From positions 1 to 30,671 of IMG/VR virus record IMGVR_UViG_3300035190_000483: a DNA stretch of 30,671 bases. One strand, given 5' to 3'. Both the position numbers and the translations under genes were made by a program. Source of the stretch: a virus. The notes below the pieces were generated by a model. The model was not told the origin of the DNA. It ran no database searches and saw only the letters and a list, made by a program, of their open reading frames with translations. This document shows, piece after piece, positions 3,539-14,302 of the stretch (the stretch's first letter is position 1; each line of letters starts with the position of its first letter).

Positions 3539-4120
3539 TTACCTGTTGTAAAAAGTAGCCCATTTAGCAATTTCATCGGCACAAATCTCGGCCCAATCTT
3601 CACTGAAACAAGCATACTTCTTATAATGTTCAACTGCGAAATCTATGCCGTTACGACCGGCATCACAAGAAAAGCATCTCTGAAGTTCTTTTAGTTGATA
3701 ATCGTTATAAATCTTAGGAAAGTCATTTGGCTTAATGTTTAACACTTCTATCTCATAGTGCCTAGTTTTGCCGAATATAAGACGTCTTTCTATCTCTTGC
3801 TCTTGAACATATAAAACTAATTCTCTAAAGTTATCGTCGTGTTTATGGGCAAACACTATCCTAGGTGCACTATCTACGTTAACAAACGTTATATCGCCGT
3901 CGTCGTATACAGCATGATGTATTGTTGCTAATAGACCATCACAACCCTCGGCGGTATACATCATGCCCGCATAACCTTCCTGTAAATAAGAATAAGGACT
4001 AGCATCGGTAGTCATTAACCAAGCTGCAAGCTCATTCATATCAGAAGGGTCGTCAATGAACCGTTGAATACTTTTAACTGATTTTTCGTAAATTTTCTTG
4101 AACGCCTTAAACTTATGCAT
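3539..4120 (-). CDS. Hypothetical protein
   Basis: A 193-residue protein not recognised. It is acidic and aromatic-rich, with predicted alpha/beta mixture: an N-terminal basic helix (HKFKAFKKIYEKSVKSI), a central strand-rich part (DGDITFVNVDSAPRIVFAH), and a C-terminal Cys-containing helix region (RCFSCDAGRNGIDFAVEHYKKYACF). Cysteines at about 150-170 could bind metal but do not form a clean zinc pattern. It is the first gene after a 195-base non-coding leader that contains several hairpins; a GAGGAA ribosome site lies about 13 bases upstream, which is rather far. Start choice is therefore slightly uncertain. Confidence 0.6.
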   Translation of the reverse strand: MHKFKAFKKIYEKSVKSIQRFIDDPSDMNELAAWLMTTDASPYSYLQEGYAGMMYTAEGCDGLLATIHHAVYDDGDITFVNVDSAPRIVFAHKHDDNFRELVLYVQEQEIERRLIFGKTRHYEIEVLNIKPNDFPKIYNDYQLKELQRCFSCDAGRNGIDFAVEHYKKYACFSEDWAEICADEIAKWATFYNR

Positions 4121-4315
4121 ACATTTACCAATTCCTCTTTTGATTCTGATTGTGTTTTTCTCATTAAAGTGCCAGCACTAACGCGGCTGGCGAGCGATTA
4201 CCAGTCGGTACTTCGCCTCCCGTTACCACACAAAAATAAAAGCCCGACTGACAAATGGGTGCCGCCCCAGTGGTTCCAATACTCCCGTTAAAAATAGGTA
4301 AGGGCGGCATTAAAC
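4121..4315. promoter_or_regulatory. Structured non-coding leader between thyX and the next leftward gene
   Basis: No convincing gene lies in these 195 bases. Inverted repeats fill the region: GCCAGC/GCTGGC at 4171-4191, GGCGA/TCGCC at 4189-4217 enclosing TACC-AGTC-GGTA (4199-4210), and TGCCGCCC/GGGCGGCA with arms at 4260-4267 and 4302-4309. The word CTCCCGTTA occurs twice (4217-4225, 4282-4290). No T-run follows the stems in the leftward direction, so a simple terminator is unlikely. Read leftward this is the 5' leader of the 193-residue protein gene. No clear -10/-35 pair was seen. Confidence 0.5.
4171..4191 (-). repeat. Hairpin motif, copy 1 (6-bp stem, 9-base loop)
   Basis: The arms GCCAGC and GCTGGC pair perfectly around the plus-strand loop ACTAACGCG. 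A second copy at 14043-14063 has two swapped base pairs in the stem and a single change in the loop. The motif ends 50 bases before a leftward start codon; copy 2 ends 56 bases before another. This shared placement supports a function in leaders of leftward genes. Confidence 0.55.
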
Positions 4316-4963
4316 TTAGGCCATTAAAGCGGCCCAACTGACAGGGAATAATGGCTCTATTAACGCGCTGATTGCTTTCGCCACGTCGCGAGTTTCTTTT
4401 TGTGCGTGTGGATCAAGACGCAACTTACAAACTCTAGCAAAAAACACAAGGCTACCTGTCCAAATCCATGTGGTTTCTGAGCATATCGGAATGACCGCAC
4501 GCGCTTGCTCAGGGCATACGCCACTAGCAATGAGATAATCATATGTGGTCAAACACACTTCCATTGCTTGATTTATGTGTTCCTGATCGACTTCTACCAA
4601 CTCATCGCTTGAGCCTTGCTTTACATTCTCTGCGGCTCTGCGCCATTTGGTAGGCACATCAAGCACAGGCGCGGTTGACACATAACGCCTGCTAACTTCG
4701 TTTACCACGCCCCCAACTTGATGCTTGGCGAGCTGCCTAGCCACGTAGATAGGCATTGTTACCCTGAACTTGATTGCGGTATGTGCAAAAGGCGTCCAGT
4801 GTTTGTGTTTTGCTAAGTAATGAATTAGCCGCTCATCCTTTTCTGACAAAATAGGCGCCCAGTTCCAGTCAAATTCCAATTCAGATTCCTTGTCAAAGGA
4901 CACTCGCGCCGCATTAACTATGCTCCTATCGTCTCCCATGTGATCTAGTAATTCAACGCGCAT
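4316..4963 (-). CDS. thyX: Flavin-dependent thymidylate synthase ThyX
   Basis: A 215-residue enzyme that makes dTMP from dUMP using FAD/NADPH and methylene-tetrahydrofolate. The ThyX signature is present at residues 80-94 as KHQVGGVVNEVSRRY, with Lys-His-Gln in place of the usual Arg-His-Arg, a form found in phage members. Also visible are HWTPFAH (55-61), and the C-terminal helices around WIWTGSLVFFARVCKLRLD and AQKETRDVAKAI. Length is normal. ATG 4963 has a near-perfect GGAGG site; it overlaps the upstream gene by 11 bases. The gene would supply thymidylate for phage DNA synthesis, as MazG and ThyX often do in virulent phages. Confidence 0.93.
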   Translation of the reverse strand: MRVELLDHMGDDRSIVNAARVSFDKESELEFDWNWAPILSEKDERLIHYLAKHKHWTPFAHTAIKFRVTMPIYVARQLAKHQVGGVVNEVSRRYVSTAPVLDVPTKWRRAAENVKQGSSDELVEVDQEHINQAMEVCLTTYDYLIASGVCPEQARAVIPICSETTWIWTGSLVFFARVCKLRLDPHAQKETRDVAKAISALIEPLFPVSWAALMA

Positions 4964-5228
4964 TGTTATCAGCCTCCGTAAGCGCCTGAGAAACCGCATA
5001 GCGCAGATTAAAGTGCCACGCTTTAGTTGGCACAGAACATTGCTTTTCTTCCCACAGTCGCCGGTACGACGGGTATTTAATGGTGCCGCTCGGCACTACG
5101 CACCTGACATAAAAGTCATCCTTAGATATACAAATCAATCCTTTGCGAATTGACACTTCAACGCCAGGTAGTTGATTGATTGCGGCTAATACACGTTGCG
5201 TGGCTTGATTGGTTTTTCCGTTACTCAT
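4953..5228 (-). CDS. Hypothetical protein
   Basis: A 91-residue protein using ATG 5228; an in-frame TTG at 5255 would add nine residues. It starts with a helix (NQATQRVLAAINQLPGVEVSI) followed by strands (GLICISKDDFYVRCVV) and a basic aromatic C-terminal half. The opening is a bit like small nuclease or wHTH proteins, but no catalytic pattern is seen, and no function is given. It overlaps the upstream stop by eight bases and the thyX start by 11, so it is embedded in the operon. Confidence 0.6.
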   Translation of the reverse strand: MSNGKTNQATQRVLAAINQLPGVEVSIRKGLICISKDDFYVRCVVPSGTIKYPSYRRLWEEKQCSVPTKAWHFNLRYAVSQALTEADNNAR

Positions 5229-5622
5229 GACGAAGTCCGTTAGCGGCTTTAGCAAAAGCGGCTGATATGTCTAAAAAAAGAGTTTGCAAGACGTGCGTGT
5301 TGTCTAAAGGTTTTCCAATTGTATGAACAATAATCGGTTGTTGTGCAATAGCATCAGGCTTTGATGCAAATTTGAGTGTTCTTGCAATATCCCACACTGT
5401 TTTTTTATCTTTTTTATCGGCACTCACGCCGCAGACAAGCACACCTTTATCCCTCATGTAACACAACTTGGCGCTAATAATTTTTCGCGCTTTTTTTGAA
5501 TCAATGTGTTTATAAGCGCCGTTTTTTACCAACTCCAAATACACTTCATGCGTAGTTGCTGGTCGCGGCATGTTTTTTAATGTTGTTTCCAACAAATCAT
5601 ATATTGTTGATTGAGCCATCAT
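5221..5622 (-). CDS. Putative winged-helix protein
   Basis: A 133-residue basic protein. Residues about 15-60 (PATTHEVYLELVKNGAYKHI, then KKARKIISAKLCYMRDKGVLVC) have the helix-helix-strand spacing of winged-helix DNA-binding domains that end in a V-L-V wing. No specific regulator family is recognised. ATG 5622 is followed at once by a second ATG; an AGGGGA site is placed four to seven bases upstream. A hairpin-rich leader (5623-5745) precedes it, so it may start its own transcript. A regulatory role is inference only. Confidence 0.6.
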   Translation of the reverse strand: MMAQSTIYDLLETTLKNMPRPATTHEVYLELVKNGAYKHIDSKKARKIISAKLCYMRDKGVLVCGVSADKKDKKTVWDIARTLKFASKPDAIAQQPIIVHTIGKPLDNTHVLQTLFLDISAAFAKAANGLRHE

Positions 5623-5745
5623 TATTCCCCTTGGTTGTTAAGTTGCCAGTCCCTCACCTTCTGCGACTCACGCAGCGCACTCGACTGGCTCCAATGATTG
5701 TGCGGACTCTATTGGCTTATCCGTGTCCTTGCATCAGAGATACAG
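5623..5745 (-). promoter_or_regulatory. Leader with nested hairpin
   Basis: This 123-base gap contains an inverted repeat GCCAGTC (5645-5651) / GACTGGC (5683-5689) that encloses a second perfect stem CTGCG (5661-5665) / CGCAG (5671-5675). A weaker pair CCAAT/ATTGG lies at 5691-5695 and 5711-5715. On the minus strand the nested hairpin would sit 22 bases before the start of the winged-helix protein gene. No strong promoter or T-run was seen. Confidence 0.45.
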
Positions 5746-5925
5746 TCAAGGCTCCATATGCCGAGACTTTTGTAACAGATCATCTAATCTGATTATTGTG
5801 CGCTCAATCTGCCACCACAAAATGCGGCGGCGGATAGCGCGTAAAATGGGCGCTGGTTTAACGGCCTTCGGTATCACCAGGCCGTAGGTGTCCAGCAAAT
5901 CTTCCTTCATGGGTAGGCGACTCAT
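5746..5925 (-). CDS. Hypothetical small basic protein
   Basis: A 59-residue protein. ATG 5925 is chosen because it overlaps the TGA of the 28-residue peptide upstream in an ATGA arrangement; an in-frame GTG at 5937 would add four residues. The C-terminal half is strongly basic and helical (ILRAIRRRILWWQIERTIIRLDDLL), possibly amphipathic and membrane- or nucleic-acid-associated. Its product has no recognised family. It is the last gene of the transcript from the promoter near 7165. Confidence 0.5.
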   Translation of the reverse strand: MSRLPMKEDLLDTYGLVIPKAVKPAPILRAIRRRILWWQIERTIIRLDDLLQKSRHMEP

Positions 5926-6008
5926 TGCGTTGCCCACAAAACCACAATGATTCCAAACGATCCGCCCACCACAAGATGAACGGCGGCCAGTAATAATGCT
6001 TCCTTCAT
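5922..6008 (-). CDS. 28-residue single-span membrane peptide
   Basis: A very short gene, ATG at 6006-6008 and TGA at 5922-5924. The peptide begins MKEALLLAAVHLVVGG and continues SFGIIVVLWATQ: almost entirely hydrophobic, one membrane span, with a charged KE at the N-terminus. A GAGGGG ribosome site lies about nine bases upstream, and its stop overlaps the next start (ATGA). Its ribosome site overlaps the end of the 50-residue gene, so the three small genes look translationally coupled. It is short enough that chance cannot be excluded, but the SD and couplings argue for it. Confidence 0.5.
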   Translation of the reverse strand: MKEALLLAAVHLVVGGSFGIIVVLWATQ

Positions 6009-6012
6009 AGCT

Positions 6013-6165
6013 TTATCCCCTCAATGTTTTTGTAATTGCCAAATCGCGATGGATCCGGTCAATGTCTGTGATTCTGCCATCCATGACGTAGCCCGCCATG
6101 GCGTAACCAAACGTACCGGCGGCAATAGAAGCCGCCAGTGCAAAAATTAAGACTAAAATAATCAT
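6013..6165 (-). CDS. 50-residue membrane protein
   Basis: ATG at 6163-6165, TAA at 6013-6015, 50 residues. The N-terminus is a hydrophobic span (MIILVLIFALAASIAAG, then FGYAMAGYV), followed by a polar tail of about 22 residues (DGRITDIDRIHRDLAITK). An uncleaved anchor with a cytoplasmic or periplasmic tail is likely. It starts one base after the stop of the upstream gene, so it belongs to the operon. No family is recognised; superinfection exclusion or lysis timing are the usual guesses for such peptides and are unproven here. Confidence 0.6.
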   Translation of the reverse strand: MIILVLIFALAASIAAGTFGYAMAGYVMDGRITDIDRIHRDLAITKTLRG

Positions 6166-6166
6166 C

Positions 6167-6466
6167 TTAGTCCCTGTTGTCGTAGATATAGAAATCTACG
6201 GCCTCGAAGGAAGGCTTTTCGCCTTCTGGGGCGCGATTGGCGTTTTCAAATACGCCAATCAAAAAGCTACCGCACAGCCGCATAGCAGCGGCTGGATGAA
6301 CGACAACGACTCCATCGAATGGGCCGTTTTCATGGCCCATGACGTCGGTGACGTCAACGCTAAATGCGTCGCGGTCGCCTATCGGTACTAAAGTAATGCC
6401 CTTGTCAGAGGCCAGTTGGGTCTGGCCGGTGGTTGGCGTGTGGCGGCTGATGAATGCGAATTTCAT
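6167..6466 (-). CDS. Small protein with possible Csx16-like layout
   Basis: A 99-residue protein. It opens with MKFAFISRHTPTTGQ, then GITLVPIGDRDAF, has an acidic middle, then FDGVVVVHPAAAMRLCG, FLIGVFENANR and FYIYDNRD. An N-terminal strand ending in S/T-R-H, followed by a strand and a proline-alanine-rich helix start in the second half, recalls from memory the CRISPR-associated Csx16 (VVA1548) family, whose members associate with type III systems. Similarity is only in layout and a few residues, so the call is a hypothesis. Alternatively it is an unrelated phage early protein. It overlaps the upstream gene by four bases. Confidence 0.65.
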   Translation of the reverse strand: MKFAFISRHTPTTGQTQLASDKGITLVPIGDRDAFSVDVTDVMGHENGPFDGVVVVHPAAAMRLCGSFLIGVFENANRAPEGEKPSFEAVDFYIYDNRD

Positions 6467-7101
6467 ATGGCTTCTCCTGTAAGGTGAAATTTAATCCCGT
6501 AAAGGGATTGGGTTTTTTGCGCTGTAATCTTGGTTTCTGCTCCTATTGGGGCAGATGTTTCAACTCTGAAAGTCTCTCCTTCCCATTCAACAAAGCCGCC
6601 AACGTGCCCGTCGAACTTTTTCCTTACTGAGTAAGGAAATTCTCTTAAAACCAATACCGCGCCGACTGGCGGGAGGTCTTTCTTAAGCCCAACGGTTGGT
6701 TGCACGGCCGGCCGAACCGGCTTTTCGCGCCGCCGAGCATCCATCTGCTCGCGATTGGCCTTAATGGCCGTCCGTGCGGCGGCTAACTGGTCAGCCGTCG
6801 CATGGGTTCCGGCCTGATGCAATGCTTGCATCAAGCGATTTGAAAAATCAGGAGCGCGGTTGCCCATGATGGCAACCACCAGCGGGTCAAAACCCGCTTG
6901 TGCAGAAGACATTACGTCTTCTGCTTGGCGCAGATGCGCCCAAGACTTTTCTGCAATCGCCGCAGCGGCCATCAATATAGCGCCGCTGTGGATGGCTTGC
7001 CATTGCTGGCAGGCCAGTCTGACGGCATTGTCGTCGCCGTCATTTTGAACGCCAACGATGTTGGCGTTGGTCAAATGATTGATGTATGAATCAGTTAACA
7101 T
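6463..7101 (-). CDS. Hypothetical protein, first gene of a leftward transcript
   Basis: A 212-residue protein not recognised. The N-terminal 130 residues are Ala-rich and helical (AILMAAAAIAEKSWAHLRQAEDV; LAAARTAIKANREQMDARRREK), then a Pro/Lys linker (VRPAVQPTVGLKKDLPP) and a small strand-rich C-terminal domain (VGAVLVLREFPYSVRKKFDG ... FRVETSAPIG) of SH3-like appearance. A good AGGAG site lies nine bases before ATG 7101, and a sigma70-type promoter is found about 50 bases further upstream. Being first behind a strong promoter suggests early expression. Confidence 0.65.
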   Translation of the reverse strand: MLTDSYINHLTNANIVGVQNDGDDNAVRLACQQWQAIHSGAILMAAAAIAEKSWAHLRQAEDVMSSAQAGFDPLVVAIMGNRAPDFSNRLMQALHQAGTHATADQLAAARTAIKANREQMDARRREKPVRPAVQPTVGLKKDLPPVGAVLVLREFPYSVRKKFDGHVGGFVEWEGETFRVETSAPIGAETKITAQKTQSLYGIKFHLTGEAI

Positions 7102-7152
7102 CTCTGGAGTCTCCTTGTATTTGCTTCAGCGGATTGCCTCAGCTTGGTGAAT

Positions 7153-7181
7153 ACCATACAACTACACCAAAGTGTCGTCAA
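7153..7181 (-). promoter_or_regulatory. Sigma70-type promoter for the 7101 leftward operon
   Basis: Read leftward: -35 TTGACG (7176-7181, five of six consensus bases), a 17-base spacer, and -10 TATGGT (7153-7158, four of six). It lies in the 91-base gap between the zinc-ribbon gene and the gene starting at 7101, giving a leader of about 45 bases with an AGGAG ribosome site. This is the best promoter seen in the window. Confidence 0.65.
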
Positions 7182-7192
7182 CAACTTTTTTG

Positions 7193-7534
7193 CTAATTTC
7201 TCCACCAGGAACGAAAATTTTTAATTGAGCTAATGGTTGTGCGCGAAACCTCAAACTTGCGCCCTACTTCGGCGCAACTTATGCCGTCATTTAGCAGGCC
7301 GCGAATGAGCGCCACGTCATGCGCGGTTAGCTTGGCGTGATGGTGTGTTTCGCCATAGGTCGGCATCAACCGTTGTTCACGCTCAAACGGTAGCTGGCGT
7401 TGCGCTTTAATTTGACGTACCTGGATCAACTTGCATTGCTTGCACCAGGACTGTAAATATCTTCCCTGTTTTTGTGTATAAAAGTCTGTAACCGGCTTAA
7501 CTGTCCGGCATTTGGTGCATTGTTTTGAGTCCAT
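7193..7534 (-). CDS. Zinc-ribbon / helix-turn-helix protein
   Basis: A 113-residue protein. Residues 6-35 carry a treble-clef-like zinc site: C-x2-C (CTKC), then DFYTQKQGRYLQSW and C-x2-C (CKQC), typical of the N-terminus of many phage HNH-endonuclease relatives. The C-terminal half is an HTH (KLTAHDVALIRGLLNDGISC, then AEVGRKFEVSRTTISSIK). No HNH catalytic core is present, so it may be a DNA-binding remnant of a homing endonuclease or a small regulator. Its first 109 bases overlap the end of the SF2 helicase gene in another frame. An AAGGTGG site lies about ten bases upstream. Confidence 0.7.
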   Translation of the reverse strand: MDSKQCTKCRTVKPVTDFYTQKQGRYLQSWCKQCKLIQVRQIKAQRQLPFEREQRLMPTYGETHHHAKLTAHDVALIRGLLNDGISCAEVGRKFEVSRTTISSIKNFRSWWRN

Positions 7535-9105
7535 GAGCGATTCACCACCTTGTTATATTTCCCGTCGCGCTTGTACTTGATCGTTGTTGGCGGAATCCCC
7601 TTGTTTAAGTTGCCAGCCTGGCGAATCAGGTCATCATCTAAACTTGCGTCAGCCTGTTGTGCAATCGTGACTATTTCTAAGCGTGACTTATGCCCAGCGT
7701 ACCCGTCGTGTAAAACGGGGAAAAATTCGGTTATTGGTTGAACGTCCATCCGGTCACTGTAGTAACGCACTGACAACATGTGCTTACCGCTGGCTTTACT
7801 AATGTACTTCTGCCAATGCCAATCAATGACGGTCATCTCAGTGGCTTCTAGCCCCATAATATCCGCATCACTTAGCTTAAGTTCTTTCTTTTCCTTAACG
7901 GGAAAAACCGCCTCGCATGACGGGCATGTACTCGTTGATATGGCGACAATTTCACCGCATTGTTCGCACGTTTTAGTTGGCGCTTGCCCGTCGCCTTGCT
8001 TTGCCTTATTTGGCGGTTCTACGGCGGTTATAGGCCCGTGTTGCTTCACTACACCGGCAAAATCCAGCACTAAACAATGATCCGTGTGTGACTTAGGACG
8101 CAAACCACGGCCTGCCATTTGCACATATAAGCCTGGTGACATGGTGGGACGCAGCATCGCTATTAGGTCAATGTCGGGATAGTCAAACCCAGTCGTCAGA
8201 ACATTAGCGTTAGTTAACGCTTGAATCTTGCCAGCCTTGAAATCTAACAAAATGCGTTCGCGCTCGGCTTTGGTGGTGGTTCCAGTTACGCACTCGGCGG
8301 TTATGCCTTGCGCCTTAAGTTCGCTGGCGATGTGTTCAGCGTGTTGCACGCCAGCGCAAAACAACAGCCATGCCTTGCGATCACCCGCTAGTGTTTTGAT
8401 TTCATTCACTACGCGCTGGTTAATGGCGTCAACGTCAACGGCTTTTTGTAACTCGCGCTCTATGTACTCACCGCCGCGCTTATGCACGCCTGTCGTGTCT
8501 AGTTGAGTGTGAGTCACTTTTGAACGCAGCGGCATCAAGTGGCCTTTGGTTATCAATTCCTCAATAGTCACCGGCTCAATCAATGCGTCAAAAATTGCAG
8601 GCTTGTCTGTTATTAGGCCGTGTCCCAATCTGAACGGCGTAGCAGTCAACCCGATCACACGCAACGCGGGATTGATAGCCAGTAAAGAGGCTAGTAACGT
8701 CCGATAGCCGCCTTCATCGTTGTGATTTACAAGGTGACACTCATCTATAATTACCAAATCGACATGCCCAACTTGATCCGCGTGTTTCCTGATTGACTGA
8801 ATCCCTGCAAACGTGATGGGTTCCCCCAATATCTTCTGCCCCATACCGGCTGAATATATGCCCATAGGCGCATTAGGCCAGTGTTGACGCATCTTTTGCG
8901 CGTTCTGTTCTATCAGTTCCTTAACATGCGTCAGCATCAAAATGCGCGTTTCAGGCCACGATTGCAGCGCATCCTTGCATAACGCGGCTATAACGTGACT
9001 TTTGCCCGCACCGGTTGGCAAGACAAGACAGGGATTACCTGAATTGCGGCTTAACCAGTCATAAAGCTGGTTTATGGATCGTTGTTGGTAATCGCGCAGC
9101 TTCAT
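7426..9105 (-). CDS. SF2 DEAD/DEAH-type helicase with zinc ribbon
   Basis: A 559-residue ATP-dependent helicase of the UvsW/RAD25-like SF2 type. Motifs: Walker A PTGAGKS (30-36), DECH (121-124), TATPFR (154-159), TTGFDYPDID (304-313) and QMAGRGLR (329-336). A four-Cys zinc ribbon follows (C380, C383, C394, C397). The C-terminal 150 residues are not recognised; the last 35 are encoded in the region shared with the zinc-ribbon/HTH gene. ATG 9105 follows a GGGAGGG site and overlaps the nuclease stop by four bases. With the nuclease and Sak4-like protein it suggests recombination or fork restart. Confidence 0.92.
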   Translation of the reverse strand: MKLRDYQQRSINQLYDWLSRNSGNPCLVLPTGAGKSHVIAALCKDALQSWPETRILMLTHVKELIEQNAQKMRQHWPNAPMGIYSAGMGQKILGEPITFAGIQSIRKHADQVGHVDLVIIDECHLVNHNDEGGYRTLLASLLAINPALRVIGLTATPFRLGHGLITDKPAIFDALIEPVTIEELITKGHLMPLRSKVTHTQLDTTGVHKRGGEYIERELQKAVDVDAINQRVVNEIKTLAGDRKAWLLFCAGVQHAEHIASELKAQGITAECVTGTTTKAERERILLDFKAGKIQALTNANVLTTGFDYPDIDLIAMLRPTMSPGLYVQMAGRGLRPKSHTDHCLVLDFAGVVKQHGPITAVEPPNKAKQGDGQAPTKTCEQCGEIVAISTSTCPSCEAVFPVKEKKELKLSDADIMGLEATEMTVIDWHWQKYISKASGKHMLSVRYYSDRMDVQPITEFFPVLHDGYAGHKSRLEIVTIAQQADASLDDDLIRQAGNLNKGIPPTTIKYKRDGKYNKVVNRSWTQNNAPNAGQLSRLQTFIHKNREDIYSPGASNAS

Positions 9106-10118
9106 CCAATTACCCTCCCATTCAACACGTCGCGCATTGCTTCACTAGTATTGTCAGGATTAGCGCACGCGCTAGGATTCGCGAGTATTTCACTGCTAGA
9201 AAACACAAACGCATCAGGTTCACCGTTACGAACCGGATTTCCGTCAACTTCAAACGTCAATTCATGCTCGCTGTGATCTATTATTTTCCATTGCACAAGG
9301 TCAGGATGCAGCAAATGCGACTCGCAACCTGTGCGCTGAAACTCGACAGGAATCTCAGAATCATCATGCCTGGCACACGTCCAAGTGCTTTTATCTGTCG
9401 CGGTTGCATGGCAGCATGTCCTGCAATTAACTTCCTTCGTTGTGTGGCTTTTGTGGCAAAAGTCATAAGCCGCGCACATTTTGCAAATATACCAACTAGG
9501 ATCAACGCTCATTGGTTCCGGCATACGGTCAGATTGCACCAATCGTTTACCGCGATCTATATACCTTTGTGCTATTTCCTTATTAAGTCGCACTCGTTCT
9601 GTATAGATTTCGTCATTATCTTTACATATCGCATAATACAACGCTCGGTCAATCTTTAAGCCAAGCATATAAAGTTGCATTTGTATGTAATGTTGCGGCT
9701 TAGATTTTTCTACGCCATTCTTTTGCAAGTCATCAAATGACTTTTTGCCATGAGTCTTGCACTCCAAAACGTGATACTTCAGCGGTGCTTCCGGTACGCC
9801 AGCGGTTATAACACCGTCCACGCTTCCTGATATGTGCCAGCCAAAGTCAACCGATGATTGGCGATCACTGACTTTTACGCCAACGGCACGCAAGTCTTGC
9901 AAGATAGTTGATTCCTCTAACTGGCCTCTGCGAAACAGCCTCAATATGCGTCCGTCGAATTTTTCAATCACGGCCCACCGAAATGACAGCCACAAATAGC
10001 GGTCACAAGGATGGCCCAGTATCGAACAACCCATGTGCGGGCGCGGCGGTTCTTGTGTATCGGAGTGATGCTGGTCAATCAAACCGGCCAACGTGATTTC
10101 TGGTTCAGGTATTTGCAT
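9102..10118 (-). CDS. PD-(D/E)XK nuclease, Cas4/RecB-like
   Basis: A 338-residue nuclease. The active site is visible as D101 (SGSVDGVI), E119-x-K121 (VLECKTHG) and the Q146xxxY150 motif (QMQLYM). C38 (GHPCDRYLW) together with C212, C215 and C221 (CKMCAAYDFC) fits the four-Cys iron-sulfur layout of Cas4 and AddB-type exonucleases. More cysteines follow (C232, C235, C236, C248, C265), which might bind a second metal. It would resect DNA ends with the SF2 helicase whose start it overlaps. The start overlaps the upstream stop by one base (TAATG). Cas4 itself is unlikely since no cas genes are nearby. Confidence 0.85.
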   Translation of the reverse strand: MQIPEPEITLAGLIDQHHSDTQEPPRPHMGCSILGHPCDRYLWLSFRWAVIEKFDGRILRLFRRGQLEESTILQDLRAVGVKVSDRQSSVDFGWHISGSVDGVITAGVPEAPLKYHVLECKTHGKKSFDDLQKNGVEKSKPQHYIQMQLYMLGLKIDRALYYAICKDNDEIYTERVRLNKEIAQRYIDRGKRLVQSDRMPEPMSVDPSWYICKMCAAYDFCHKSHTTKEVNCRTCCHATATDKSTWTCARHDDSEIPVEFQRTGCESHLLHPDLVQWKIIDHSEHELTFEVDGNPVRNGEPDAFVFSSSEILANPSACANPDNTSEAMRDVLNGRVIG

Positions 10119-12403
10119 TAGAATAATTCCTCTTGTTTTTCTTTTAACTTCACTGAATCAAGATTTTTGCACGCTATGTCAAAATAGGATTTCTTCAATT
10201 CAGCGCCAACAAAATGACGTCCCATGTTCAATGCAACATATCCTTCGCTACCAATTCCGGTGAAAGGCGAGAATACTAAATCGCCAGGGTTAGACCACAA
10301 CTCAATACAACGCTCAATCACGTCCAACTGCAAAGGACAAATATGACGTTCTTCGTTTTTTTCTTTTGCTAATTTGTAATTCAGCACATTAGTTTGATCT
10401 ATGTCAAACCACACCGGCGAAGCGTAACGCTGCCACACAGCAATCGAATACAATCTTTGTTTTTCGGTTTCACTTCTAGCGCGTCCCCAGTCCTTTGTTT
10501 GTGGAGCGTTATAGCTTGATCCAATGTAATCAAAAAACCGTTCTTTGCCTCGCGTCACGGCTTCCCAATCTTCCTCGTCTGCCCATTTCCTCATGACGAT
10601 TATGTAGTCAGCCATGCCCTGACGCGATGCGCTAGAGTCTTTGCACAACTGTTTGTACAAAAGTCCGTGGTTTTTAGTGCGTTGCATTTCTATCGCAGGA
10701 TCTTTCCAAATTGTCACGCGGCTATGATATTGCCAGCCTTTTGATTCATACATTTTTATAATTTCACCAGGAAAGTCGCGCAAACCGGCGGCACCATCGC
10801 GGCCCTTGTAAGTCGGCAAATCCTTGCAATGTATAGCGGTCAATCGTCCTGGCTTTGTGATCCTGTGCAATTCTTCCGCTAGGTAGCTGTAATGCTCCAT
10901 AAATTGACCGTCATCGGTACTGTTACCCATGTCGTATTCTGAATCTGAATAGATATACAGATTAGAAAACGGCGGCGAATACACGCTAAACCCAATAGAA
11001 TTGCTGTCAATCATCTTGGCAACATGAACGCAATCGCCATGATGCAAAGTCCAATTGTCTGATTGAACAGTTTCAAAGTATGCAACGTCGTTCATTTGAG
11101 TTTCCCTCTTGTGATAGTTTGCAATGGCCTCAACCATGGCTTCTTTCATTTCGTTATGCTTTTGTTCTTTTGCTTTGATAATTGCAAGAATTGAACTCTC
11201 AGAATCAGCGGCCATGACATAACTGTTAACTGCTTTAGTTTGTCCAAACCTGTAGCATCTACGAATTGCTTGGTAATAGTTCTCGTAAGAGTACGATAAA
11301 CCAACAAAAGCCATATTCCTACAATGCTGAAAATTTAATCCCATGCCAGCGATTGACGGTTTAGTAATCAATACTCTTGTTTTTCCGTCAATAAACGACT
11401 GCAATGATTGTTCTTTTTTGTCAATAGTATCCGATCCGCGCACGTCAACCGCATCAGGAATCAAACCTTTCAACGCATCGGCTTCATAATTTGTATTGCA
11501 CCACACTAGCCACGATTCATCTGAATTGTTGACCAATTCAGCCACCTTAACGGCGCGTTTATCAACCGTTAAACGTCCTTCTTTGTGTACGCTAGTCGCG
11601 TTGATTGTTACGTTCCTGAACAATTCCCCGTCGGCTGGCGGCAAGTCATCCGTATTGATTCTGATAAATTCCTGATTCAATGGCGGCAAATTGTAGGCGC
11701 TTCCGTCATAACCTAAATCAGCCGGATTGCTAATGCACATTGCCCATGACGCCAGCCATTCCCAAAACTTAGTAGCCGCGTGTGGCTTCAAAACATACGC
11801 TCCGGCTTCCATCGTGTCGTTTTGGAAAAACCGCATAATCATTTCATTGCTTGGCATGATCCCCAAAAATTCCGCATGATTGCCGAGTTCTAGGTAATCG
11901 TTAGGCGATGGTGTAGCAGTGCAAGCGAGACGGTACGGCACCGGTTGACACAACTCAATCAATGCACGCTTGGTTTTTCCCATGTAGCTTTTCAAGATGC
12001 TGGATTCATCAAGCACTATTCCGCCAAAAGTTGAAATATCAAAATTATCAAGCATTTCATAGTTAGTGATGATGATGTTTTTTTGTATTTGTTGTTGGTT
12101 TCGACAGTATTGAATGTCAATCCCAAATTTATTGGCTTCATTGACTGTTTGTAACGATATGCACAATGGCGCAACAATTAACACACGTTGCCCTGTATGC
12201 CGCACAACCTCATCGGCCCACGACGTTTGCATGATTGTTTTGCCTAGTCCGGTATCTGCAAAAATAGCAGCGCGGCCTTTTTTGACCGCCCACTCAGTGA
12301 CATATTTTTGAAAATCAAACAAGTTGTTGTTTAACGCAATTGGCGCGTGTCCAATTGTGATTTCATGTTGTCTTTTTTGTTGTATGAACTCATCGTATTG
12401 CAT
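10118..12403 (-). CDS. SNF2-type helicase fused to DNA methyltransferase
   Basis: A 761-residue fusion. Residues 1-430 are an SF2/SNF2 helicase: Walker A TGLGKT (51-56), DESS (132-135), TATPSP (162-167), GMGLNF (353-358) and QAIRRCYRFGQ (378-388). Residues 450-755 are an amino-methyltransferase of beta order: motif IV SPPF (476-479) precedes motif I FSPFTGIGSEG (711-721). SPPF favours N4-cytosine, though N6-adenine is possible. No partner endonuclease of a known restriction type adjoins. Such fusions in phages are thought to protect phage DNA, as P1 DarB does; that role is inferred. An AGGGTGAT site precedes ATG 12403. Confidence 0.92.
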   Translation of the reverse strand: MQYDEFIQQKRQHEITIGHAPIALNNNLFDFQKYVTEWAVKKGRAAIFADTGLGKTIMQTSWADEVVRHTGQRVLIVAPLCISLQTVNEANKFGIDIQYCRNQQQIQKNIIITNYEMLDNFDISTFGGIVLDESSILKSYMGKTKRALIELCQPVPYRLACTATPSPNDYLELGNHAEFLGIMPSNEMIMRFFQNDTMEAGAYVLKPHAATKFWEWLASWAMCISNPADLGYDGSAYNLPPLNQEFIRINTDDLPPADGELFRNVTINATSVHKEGRLTVDKRAVKVAELVNNSDESWLVWCNTNYEADALKGLIPDAVDVRGSDTIDKKEQSLQSFIDGKTRVLITKPSIAGMGLNFQHCRNMAFVGLSYSYENYYQAIRRCYRFGQTKAVNSYVMAADSESSILAIIKAKEQKHNEMKEAMVEAIANYHKRETQMNDVAYFETVQSDNWTLHHGDCVHVAKMIDSNSIGFSVYSPPFSNLYIYSDSEYDMGNSTDDGQFMEHYSYLAEELHRITKPGRLTAIHCKDLPTYKGRDGAAGLRDFPGEIIKMYESKGWQYHSRVTIWKDPAIEMQRTKNHGLLYKQLCKDSSASRQGMADYIIVMRKWADEEDWEAVTRGKERFFDYIGSSYNAPQTKDWGRARSETEKQRLYSIAVWQRYASPVWFDIDQTNVLNYKLAKEKNEERHICPLQLDVIERCIELWSNPGDLVFSPFTGIGSEGYVALNMGRHFVGAELKKSYFDIACKNLDSVKLKEKQEELF

Positions 12404-12447
12404 GTTATCACCCTATATAAAAGCCGTCCTTGGCTATGTTGATTATG

Positions 12448-12927
12448 TTATTTCTTTGCCCAAGGCGGAGCGCCAGCACTTGATGGCGTTGACGGCGCAC
12501 TGGTCGGCATAGTGGGACGTGGTATCGCGCTTCCTTCAATGGCTTTCCAACCACGAATGTCGTTGTTAGGCTCGTATTGCTCAGATTGCGTAACCTGAAC
12601 TTTAATGCTCAGTTTACCGCCGATGAAGTCATCAGTGTCGCTCAAACGTGACAAACCGATTGCCCGCATAATGTCACCAAGTTGCTGACGGCCGATTTCC
12701 TCGGCCTTCGGATTGGCATTACGTATGTTTATGTTGCCAAAAACAAAGCGGCCAGCGTGTGTCGGCCCAAGCACTTCGTACTTGAGCGCAATCATCTTGC
12801 CACCGCTTTTAGTCGGCCTGATTTCCGCGCTGTTGATAGACGCCATGTACCAACCCGCCGGAAGCGGCTCGAATGATGGTTGGCTAGTGGGCAGACTGTC
12901 GAGGTCAAAAGATTCATCAAGTAACAT
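12448..12927 (-). CDS. DUF669-family putative ssDNA-binding protein
   Basis: A 159-residue protein. The core (PLPAGWYMASINSAEIRPTK, KYEVLGPTHAGRFVFGNINI, and GDIMRAIGLSRLSD) fits DUF669, a phage family found beside recombinases and thought to bind single-stranded DNA. The C-terminus is Pro/Ser-rich and disordered (from about residue 136), ending PPWAKK, a tail seen in many phage members. It lies in the same leftward unit as the Sak4-like ATPase, which commonly pairs with an SSB. An AAGGAG site lies eight bases before ATG 12927. Binding itself is not shown by the sequence. Confidence 0.75.
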   Translation of the reverse strand: MLLDESFDLDSLPTSQPSFEPLPAGWYMASINSAEIRPTKSGGKMIALKYEVLGPTHAGRFVFGNINIRNANPKAEEIGRQQLGDIMRAIGLSRLSDTDDFIGGKLSIKVQVTQSEQYEPNNDIRGWKAIEGSAIPRPTMPTSAPSTPSSAGAPPWAKK

Positions 12928-12931
12928 TGGT

Positions 12932-13315
12932 TTACTCCTTTATAGTAATAGTGAAACTGGGACGCCCTGGCGTGGTTGTAATAGCGTCCAGCAGAGGATC
13001 AGTGATTGTATGGTCTGCGGCCTTCCACGCTGTCATGGATAGTTCAGGCTTCCACCTGAACAGTGTGGCGAGATGATCCGCCAAGCCATGCTCTGCGGCG
13101 ATTTCAAGCAACCGTTCATCGTCAATCTTGCGGTTCATACGACAAACCGCCTTAATGACGATGATTCCTTCCTTGTGCGTTACGGTTCCTTCTTCGTCCT
13201 CCTGAATCCTCATGGCTTTCGCCAAATCATCCTCTATGGCGCGGCGTTTTTGTGTGGCGGCCTTTTCGCTGGCCTTTGCGATGAGCCATTCTTGGCTTAG
13301 TTTTTCTATGCTCAT
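12932..13315 (-). CDS. Unknown protein of the recombination cassette
   Basis: A 127-residue protein. The N-terminal third is a charged helix (SEKAATQKRRAIEDDLAKAMRI) that may be a coiled coil, followed by two strands (GTVTHKEGIIVIKAVCR) and a helical part. The C-terminus ends PSFTITIKE. Proteins of this kind are found between Sak4-like ATPases and DUF669 proteins in phages, but no function is established. Its start overlaps the ATPase stop by four bases, so the two are probably made together. Confidence 0.7.
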   Translation of the reverse strand: MSIEKLSQEWLIAKASEKAATQKRRAIEDDLAKAMRIQEDEEGTVTHKEGIIVIKAVCRMNRKIDDERLLEIAAEHGLADHLATLFRWKPELSMTAWKAADHTITDPLLDAITTTPGRPSFTITIKE

Positions 13316-13986
13316 TTCCCACCTATCTTGGTTATTATTTCATTGAGGTTCGGCGCTTCCCATGAATCTAACCGGCCTGATCTATCTTTTGCTGTCCACA
13401 TGCCGTCACTGTCGCACATGAATGCCCGCTGAGTGTTTCCGTCAGCGTCGCGCTCGACACGCAGTGCCAGCACTTCGTCGAAAAAGTAGGGCAGTTGTTG
13501 TCCCAACTTCTGACCTGGCATTGATGGCGCATACAGCATCCTGCCCATTTCATCCTGAGACTTTTCCACCTTGGCGGTCATCAGTACGTGCTTGCCAGGC
13601 AGATCGCGGAATGCGCGAATCAGGTCAGTCATTTGCTCTTGCATCGCGCCATAGGCTTGACGTGGATCTTTTGTCGACTTTTTTTCCGCGTTCAAACAGA
13701 CTTCGGCGATTTCGGAAATAGAATCCAGCGCCACCGATTCAAAGCCGCTGGCCTCGACTGAAGATGTAAGCCATGTGTAGGCTTCCATCAGGTCGCTCAT
13801 TGAAGTGATTTCAATGAACGGAATGTCAGCGCCTGCCAGTGAAAGCAAGCCGCCTTCAGCCGATAAGATAATCGGCGCGGGGAGTGTGGCAATGCTGGTT
13901 GTTTTTCCCGCTCCGCTTGCGCCGTACACGAGCATTTTTACACCGTTGGCGCTAAGGCCGTCGGTGCGCTTTAATTGAATAGCCAT
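13312..13986 (-). CDS. Sak4-like RecA-fold ATPase
   Basis: A 224-residue P-loop ATPase of the AAA_24/Sak4 group, RecA-like proteins that serve as single-strand annealing or recombination factors in phages. Walker A is GASGAGKT (22-29) and Walker B is VALDSI with Asp88 (85-90). LILSAEGGLLSL-like and HVLMTAKVEKSQDEMG segments fit the family. Length is typical. An AAGGAG site lies four bases before ATG 13986. It is the first gene of the leftward recombination block and faces the divergent primase gene across the structured gap. It may work with the DUF669 protein. Confidence 0.87.
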   Translation of the reverse strand: MAIQLKRTDGLSANGVKMLVYGASGAGKTTSIATLPAPIILSAEGGLLSLAGADIPFIEITSMSDLMEAYTWLTSSVEASGFESVALDSISEIAEVCLNAEKKSTKDPRQAYGAMQEQMTDLIRAFRDLPGKHVLMTAKVEKSQDEMGRMLYAPSMPGQKLGQQLPYFFDEVLALRVERDADGNTQRAFMCDSDGMWTAKDRSGRLDSWEAPNLNEIITKIGGK

Positions 13987-14260
13987 GTGGCTCCTTATTG
14001 GTTTTTGCTACGGTCAGCACAATGCTGGTTGTAGCGTTGGATGCCGACACTTACGCGGTCGGCTTACGTTTTGGGCTACACTACCCGCGCAATCTGGACT
14101 ATTTTCTTTGCCGGAAAACCAGATTACGCGGGCCTTTGCATTTGCATGGCCCGAATTAGATGCTAACACCGGCGACACTCCCAGAGTCTTTCTTCTGGCA
14201 CCGGCGTTAGCGGCACTCCCGCCCGTTGAGTTTCGGGAGTGGTTGTATGATGCTGGTTGT
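13892..14260 (+). repeat. Three copies of an 11-base direct repeat ATGCTGGTTGT
   Basis: Identical copies on the same strand at 13892-13902 (inside the Sak4-like gene), 14022-14032 and 14250-14260. The last two flank the hairpin set. They could be protein-binding sites (iterons or operators). Three exact 11-mers within 370 bases are unlikely by chance, though hairpin geometry at 14007-14035 explains part of one copy. Confidence 0.5.
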
Positions 14261-14302
14261 CGCGTATCATGTCAACACTTTTTCACCCGATGAGTACACA
14301 TA
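13987..14302. promoter_or_regulatory. Divergent, hairpin-rich control region (candidate origin)
   Basis: No supported gene in these 316 bases. Consecutive inverted repeats: GCTAC-3-CAGCA/TGCTG-3-GTAGC (14007-14035); GCCGAC/GTCGGC (14043-14063); a 14-base pair with one mismatch, arms 14084-14097 and 14119-14132; GCTAACACCGG/CCGGCGTTAGC with one mismatch (14162-14172, 14201-14211) around CCAGA/TCTGG (14181-14198); and a perfect 8-base pair CACTCCCG/CGGGAGTG (14214-14221, 14234-14241). TTACGCGG occurs at 14051-14058 and 14124-14131. This may be an origin, structured RNA or operators. No strong sigma70 promoter was found on either strand. Confidence 0.6.
14043..14063 (-). repeat. Hairpin motif, copy 2 (6-bp stem, 9-base loop)
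   Basis: Arms GCCGAC and GTCGGC flank the plus-strand loop ACTTACGCG. Relative to copy 1 at 4171-4191, the fourth and fifth stem pairs are exchanged on both arms while eight of nine loop bases are the same. It ends 56 bases before the leftward start of the Sak4-like gene. Confidence 0.55.

Follow-up and report, generated by a model that had tools for sequence, protein, structure and literature searches.

A predicted compact RNA pseudoknot upstream of genes, tRNAs and a tmRNA in unrelated phages

Two copies of the element in one phage record

The window analysed in this paper, a stretch of 30,671 bases, is taken from the IMG/VR virus record IMGVR_UViG_3300035190_000483. Its genes include those for a terminase, a primase/helicase, a Sak4-like protein, a thymidylate synthase and an endolysin. 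The terminase shows 53% identity to terminases of Pseudomonas phages, and a 761-aa ORF at 10118-12403 has matches to DNA helicase families as well as to DNA methyltransferase families.

As seen in Table 1, the window holds two copies of a short element, and the minus strand is the functional strand of both, co-oriented with the leftward genes. No PHROG match was found for the 193-aa gene beyond copy 1. Copy 2 heads an operon with Sak4-like and SSB-like genes. The putative promoter of its leader agrees with the sigma-70 consensus at 10 of 12 positions (1 match found, 0.2 expected), and copy 2 is located some 170 nt past it, well inside the leader and not at the leader end. The second leader hairpin is kept in close relatives, including the pseudoknot-less L007. 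Further strong hairpins can be observed in this leader (14090-14241, minus strand), among them CACTCCCG/CGGGAGTG at 14214-14241 and GCTAACGCCGG/CCGGTGTTAGC.

Table 1. Features of the window that bear on the element (S1 and S2, helices; L1 to L3, loops).
Feature	Position	Strand	Basis
Pseudoknot copy 1	4171..4196	-	sequence; pair counts; covariance model R2
Copy 1 S1 5' strand, CGC	4196-4194	-	pseudoknot part
Copy 1 L1, UC	4193-4192	-	pseudoknot part
Copy 1 S2 5' arm, GCCAGC	4191-4186	-	pseudoknot part
Copy 1 L2, C	4185	-	pseudoknot part
Copy 1 S1 3' strand, GCG	4184-4182	-	pseudoknot part
Copy 1 L3, UUAGU	4181-4177	-	pseudoknot part
Copy 1 S2 3' arm, GCUGGC	4176-4171	-	pseudoknot part
Pseudoknot copy 2	14043..14068	-	sequence; pair counts; covariance model R2
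Copy 2 S1 5' strand, CGU	14068-14066	-	pseudoknot part
Copy 2 L1, AA	14065-14064	-	pseudoknot part
Copy 2 S2 5' arm, GCCGAC	14063-14058	-	pseudoknot part
Copy 2 L2, C	14057	-	pseudoknot part
Copy 2 S1 3' strand, GCG	14056-14054	-	pseudoknot part
Copy 2 L3, UAAGU	14053-14049	-	pseudoknot part
Copy 2 S2 3' arm, GUCGGC	14048-14043	-	pseudoknot part
193-aa gene, downstream of copy 1	3539..4120	-	ORF; relatives L084-L087
Sak4-like ssDNA-annealing protein gene, first gene downstream of copy 2	13312..13986	-	PHROG 124, E 2.3e-60
Putative sigma-70 promoter (TTGACA-17-CATCAT) at the start of the copy 2 leader	14247..14275	-	consensus match only
Second hairpin of the leader, on the 3' side of copy 2, GCUAC..CAGCA-UUG-UGCUG..GUAGC (ends approximate)	14007..14035	-	sequence

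A sequence-only reading of the window had described the two copies as hairpins, GCCAGC-ACTAACGCG-GCTGGC at 4171-4191 and GCCGAC-ACTTACGCG-GTCGGC at 14043-14063. The two compensated stem changes that it reported are real (they are at stem positions 4 and 5), the loops do match at 8 of 9 bases, and the leftward genes start at 4120 and 13986, 50 and 56 bases from copy 1 and copy 2. Its caution that two copies cannot prove an element was also sound: similar hairpin pairs arose in 31 of 200 dinucleotide shuffles of the window, and therefore the two copies by themselves are weak evidence. What decides the question is evidence from outside the window, from the scans of IMG/VR reported below. A look-alike hairpin on the opposite strand (5013-5033, GTGCCA-CGCTTTAGT-TGGCAC) lacks S1; it is not a copy and probably arose by chance.

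The predicted fold

The element is very probably a compact H-type RNA pseudoknot of about 26 nt, as judged from pairing and covariation. Its consensus can be written C[G/C]Y-AA-(S2, 6-7 bp)-C-G[C/G]G-UNAGU-(S2'). In this layout S1 has 3 bp, L1 is usually AA, S2 has 6-7 bp, L2 is C and L3 is usually UNAGU; S1 is formed by C-[G/C]-Y just 5' of the hairpin stem, paired with G-[C/G]-G of the loop. The earlier proposal of a structured RNA in 5' leaders was right, but the description as a hairpin with a simply conserved loop was not, because the loop bases pair and covary with the bases that directly precede the hairpin. This pairing makes the element an H-type pseudoknot that extends 5 bases beyond the hairpin coordinates first given.

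The first model, R1, was a bulged-C hairpin with a GNRA tetraloop. In two sets of relatives, L005/L009 and a third copy in L359, CCUAA..CGGGUAAGUG replaces CGUAA..CGCGUAAGUG, and this class suggested the linker-loop pairs C4-G18, G5-C17 and Y6-G16. S1 was tested in one scan with the pattern CSTAAG-N5-CGSGTAAGTG, in which both positions were free to be G or C. Among the distinct sequences, G-C occurred 12 times and C-G 8 times, with C-C and G-G once each; when all five stem positions were required to pair, the counts were 10, 6, 0 and 0. A structure search of 4.4 Mb of fetched sequence, with unrestricted S1 bases, returned 52 matches, 50 of which are CGY/GCG or CCU/GGG. The loci searched had been picked by the earlier patterns, so this search is only supporting evidence.

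For S2, only free letters were counted, because pattern scans fix the conserved letters. With the pattern CGTAAG-N5-CGCGNAAGTG, all four free positions are paired in 11 of the 12 distinct sequences whose last N is T (the GUAA core) and in none of the 13 in which it is A, C or G. S2 comprises an inner C-G pair and a further 5 or 6 bp (4 in rare cases), and the unpaired motifs are unchanged as its length varies; the spacing therefore follows the helix rather than any fixed sequence.

Across 34 aligned, distinct sequences, all nine pseudoknot pairs hold in 100%, and double changes occur at seven of the nine. All of 500 shuffles scored lower, and slid controls were 24-52% paired. The boxB-like alternative, a bulge and GNRA tetraloop hairpin, was rejected, with its inner pair (stem CGC/GUG) broken in 13 of the 34 sequences. 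Under covariance model R2, built with both window copies included, copy 1 scores 42.1 bits (E 2.4e-11) and copy 2 scores 47.2 bits (E 5.4e-13).

A U-G wobble is present in S1 of 27 of the 34 sequences. In DNA this pair would be mismatched (T-G), so RNA is likely to be the active form. The first G-C pair of the element is conserved. The 3' tail is often, but not consistently, AC or ACCA, and it is CCA-like in a minority. A boxA-like tail (GCACUUUAA) occurs mainly in one lineage.

Further copies and their carriers

Pattern scans of IMG/VR found the element in unrelated phages. The check called for at the outset, that related phages should have more copies whose stems covary, came out positive. 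Records searched whole have 1-3 clear copies. At least two were found in each of L087, L122, L160, L172 and L197, typically before different small genes. Pattern matches inside coding sequence (e.g. L155, L169, L263) were taken as chance.

Among relatives of the Sak4-like and 193-aa genes, the element precedes the same or inserted genes. In the lineage of the window it can occupy a tight gap that separates a stop codon from the following start; in both L085 and L122 it lies 6 nt past the stop codon and about 20 nt before the start. In a further group (L218, L227, L231 and others) it comes right after the stop, with another hairpin 5' of it. Several copies, for example in L466 and L371, adjoin no obvious gene start and no called tRNA. 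Two copies lie within 600 nt of each other in L087, and a low-complexity repeat, GGCTCCGGTTTCGGCTACGG, is located between two element copies there (2695-2885). L359 (7500-8560) has three copies, arranged in tandem units that also contain long hairpins and have a GUUGAUGAAUGUGCAG..UGCAUG block in common; these units adjoin a tRNA and a tRNA-Sec-like sequence.

The carriers are phage records, and cellular genomes are almost without the element: one of 395 Bacteroidota genomes, a Niabella chromosome, gave a match, and a second phylum gave two marginal matches among 398 genomes. From their proteins, the carriers appear to infect several bacterial phyla, with hosts or relatives indicated among Proteobacteria, Actinobacteria and possibly cyanobacteria. 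No protein family common to the carriers was detected by all-against-all blastp of 17 records. Also, blastn against 50,697 records of named phages gave no convincing match, and the covariance model did not match three named relatives.

Neighbouring tRNAs and tmRNA

A placement in mRNA leaders, as first proposed, applies to many copies, but many others adjoin tRNAs or a tmRNA. A called tRNA begins 5 nt downstream of the element in L249, L461 and L278 and 6 nt downstream in L261; the copy in L249 stands in the middle of an array. In L216 and L230, tRNA-like sequences were recognised by eye 5 nt downstream, where the programs made no call. ARAGORN placed a tRNA within 300 nt at 8 of 31 loci (one per group), all on the same strand, compared with 0.3% of background positions. 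Because the background consists of other fetched contigs and a few groups may be related, the binomial p (5e-14) should be taken as approximate. In L369 the element is upstream of a permuted tmRNA (RF04321, 53.2 bits, above the Rfam gathering score). In this region of L369 (1629-1800) the gene is flanked by two pseudoknot copies, the second shortly before the next ORF.

Comparison with known families

At the element, no Rfam 15 family matched above its gathering score in the loci scanned, and no description was found in the open literature searched. The element is therefore presented as a new family of predicted phage leader pseudoknot, widespread in unrelated phages.

Several known elements resemble this one in some respect. 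Twister-sister ribozymes have similar repeated GNAAG letters; RF02681 was not among the Rfam matches with E up to 3-5, and a separate positive control was silent. CGUAAG is common to the element and T4 rnaC (species 1 RNA). In relatives of rnaC, CGU changes to CAU or UGU while GCG stays, so S1 is not co-conserved and homology was dropped. The start-associated sequences of cluster K mycobacteriophages reportedly include the ribosome-binding site, and we know of no pseudoknot or tRNA link for them. They are likewise short elements repeated before phage genes (PMC3203893). The STAXI motif is also a small pseudoknot and lies close to ssb and other genes for DNA handling, but it differs in its tandem repeats and frequent UUCG loops (RF01728; PMC2864571), and RF01728 had no match in the element loci.

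Proposed role

The element precedes genes, tRNAs and a tmRNA, and therefore an action on translation initiation only is unlikely. As blastp detected no protein common to the carriers, the likeliest partner of the element is a conserved host factor, or there is none and the RNA itself acts. We put at about 0.5 the probability that a pseudoknot fold together with a cis-acting 5'-boundary role is the joint explanation. On its own, the boundary mechanism, whether RNA processing or protection, is tentative and falls somewhat short of even odds. The pseudoknot would fold 5' of a functional RNA unit, namely the ribosome-binding region of an mRNA, a tRNA or a tmRNA, and would act in cis on its own transcript. 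A host factor that is widely conserved and takes part in RNA processing or decay may recognise it or be blocked by it, and the downstream unit would gain a defined, protected 5' end. Against this model stand the position of copy 2 well inside its leader and the several copies, those of L466 and L371 among them, that adjoin no obvious gene start or called tRNA.

A translational operator is an unlikely alternative. In the mRNA leader of T4/T2 gene 32, a compact H-type pseudoknot tens of nt before the start is the operator for gp32 (PMC3014915, PMC535899). By analogy, the element would nucleate a single-strand-binding protein, which would cover the ribosome-binding site and repress translation. 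The topology is the same, the T4 pseudoknot lies 67 nt upstream of its start compared with the 50-56 nt seen here, and the operon of copy 2 has fitting Sak4-like and SSB-like genes. However, the helices, loops and sequence differ from those of gene 32, and the element occurs in unrelated phages, among which blastp detected no shared protein, before diverse genes as well as before tRNAs and a tmRNA, which are not ordinary translated genes.

Quite improbable is an antiterminator similar to HK022 putL/putR, which are cis-acting structured RNAs in phage leaders that need no phage protein (PMC9378689), a property that for the element would be by analogy only. The nascent RNA would alter the elongation complex of RNA polymerase; dependence on a host factor suits the absence of a shared protein, and the sites include early-operon leaders and untranslated, Rho-prone tRNA arrays. 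However, put is about 70 nt long, with two bulged stems and a triplex (PMC9378689), whereas the element is much smaller. The putL region of HK022 showed neither evident sequence likeness nor a model match, and copies in mid-array (L249), twice within 600 nt (L087) or right after a stop codon (the L218 group) are awkward for this mechanism.

The pseudoknot in the acceptor arm of plant-virus tRNA-like structures has a similar helix order, size (3 bp and 6 bp) and position of the 3' tail. A trans-acting, tRNA-mimicking RNA, serving either as a substrate of RNase P or as a decoy for some host enzyme that targets tRNAs, would accord with this likeness of helices and AC/ACCA tail, with the conserved first G-C pair and with the tRNA neighbourhood. 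We give it little credence: the plant-virus structures end genomes, whereas the element is internal to transcripts and has no conserved CCA, with CCA-like tails only in a minority; many copies are in mRNA leaders, and a separate transcript lacks support.

The boundary model can be extended to a minimal mobile RNA module that provides mRNAs, tRNAs and tmRNA of unrelated phages, across several phyla, with defined and protected 5' ends through a universal host factor. This wider claim is doubtful; if true, the element would be the counterpart, in viruses of prokaryotes, of viral RNA elements that resist nucleases. The coding and non-coding sites, the different phyla and the failure to find a common phage protein lead to the prediction that the active agent is either a conserved host factor or the RNA itself. 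As a widespread phage pseudoknot with strong covariation, the element also bears on the processing of tRNA arrays by phages.

Accessory distribution

L007, a close relative, has the neighbouring leader hairpin without the element, which is therefore accessory; under the boundary model this accessory module would travel along with gene cassettes. A palindromic DNA site that spreads such cassettes, acting in recombination or replication, would fit this distribution and the repeated copies flanking exchangeable small genes (L087, L172, L197), but it is hardly credible given the S1 wobbles, mismatched as T-G in DNA, and the tRNA neighbours within 300 nt, which are all on the strand of the element.

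An association with Sak4 as such was rejected, the element being present in none of 69 relatives at 75-78% identity. A different leader hairpin was observed in these relatives (L015-L046), upstream of Sak4 and just after a TTGACA promoter. Its outer stem seems to covary (e.g. CTGCGC-GAACGGAATCACCCAAAG-GCGCAG versus CACCAC..GTGGTG).
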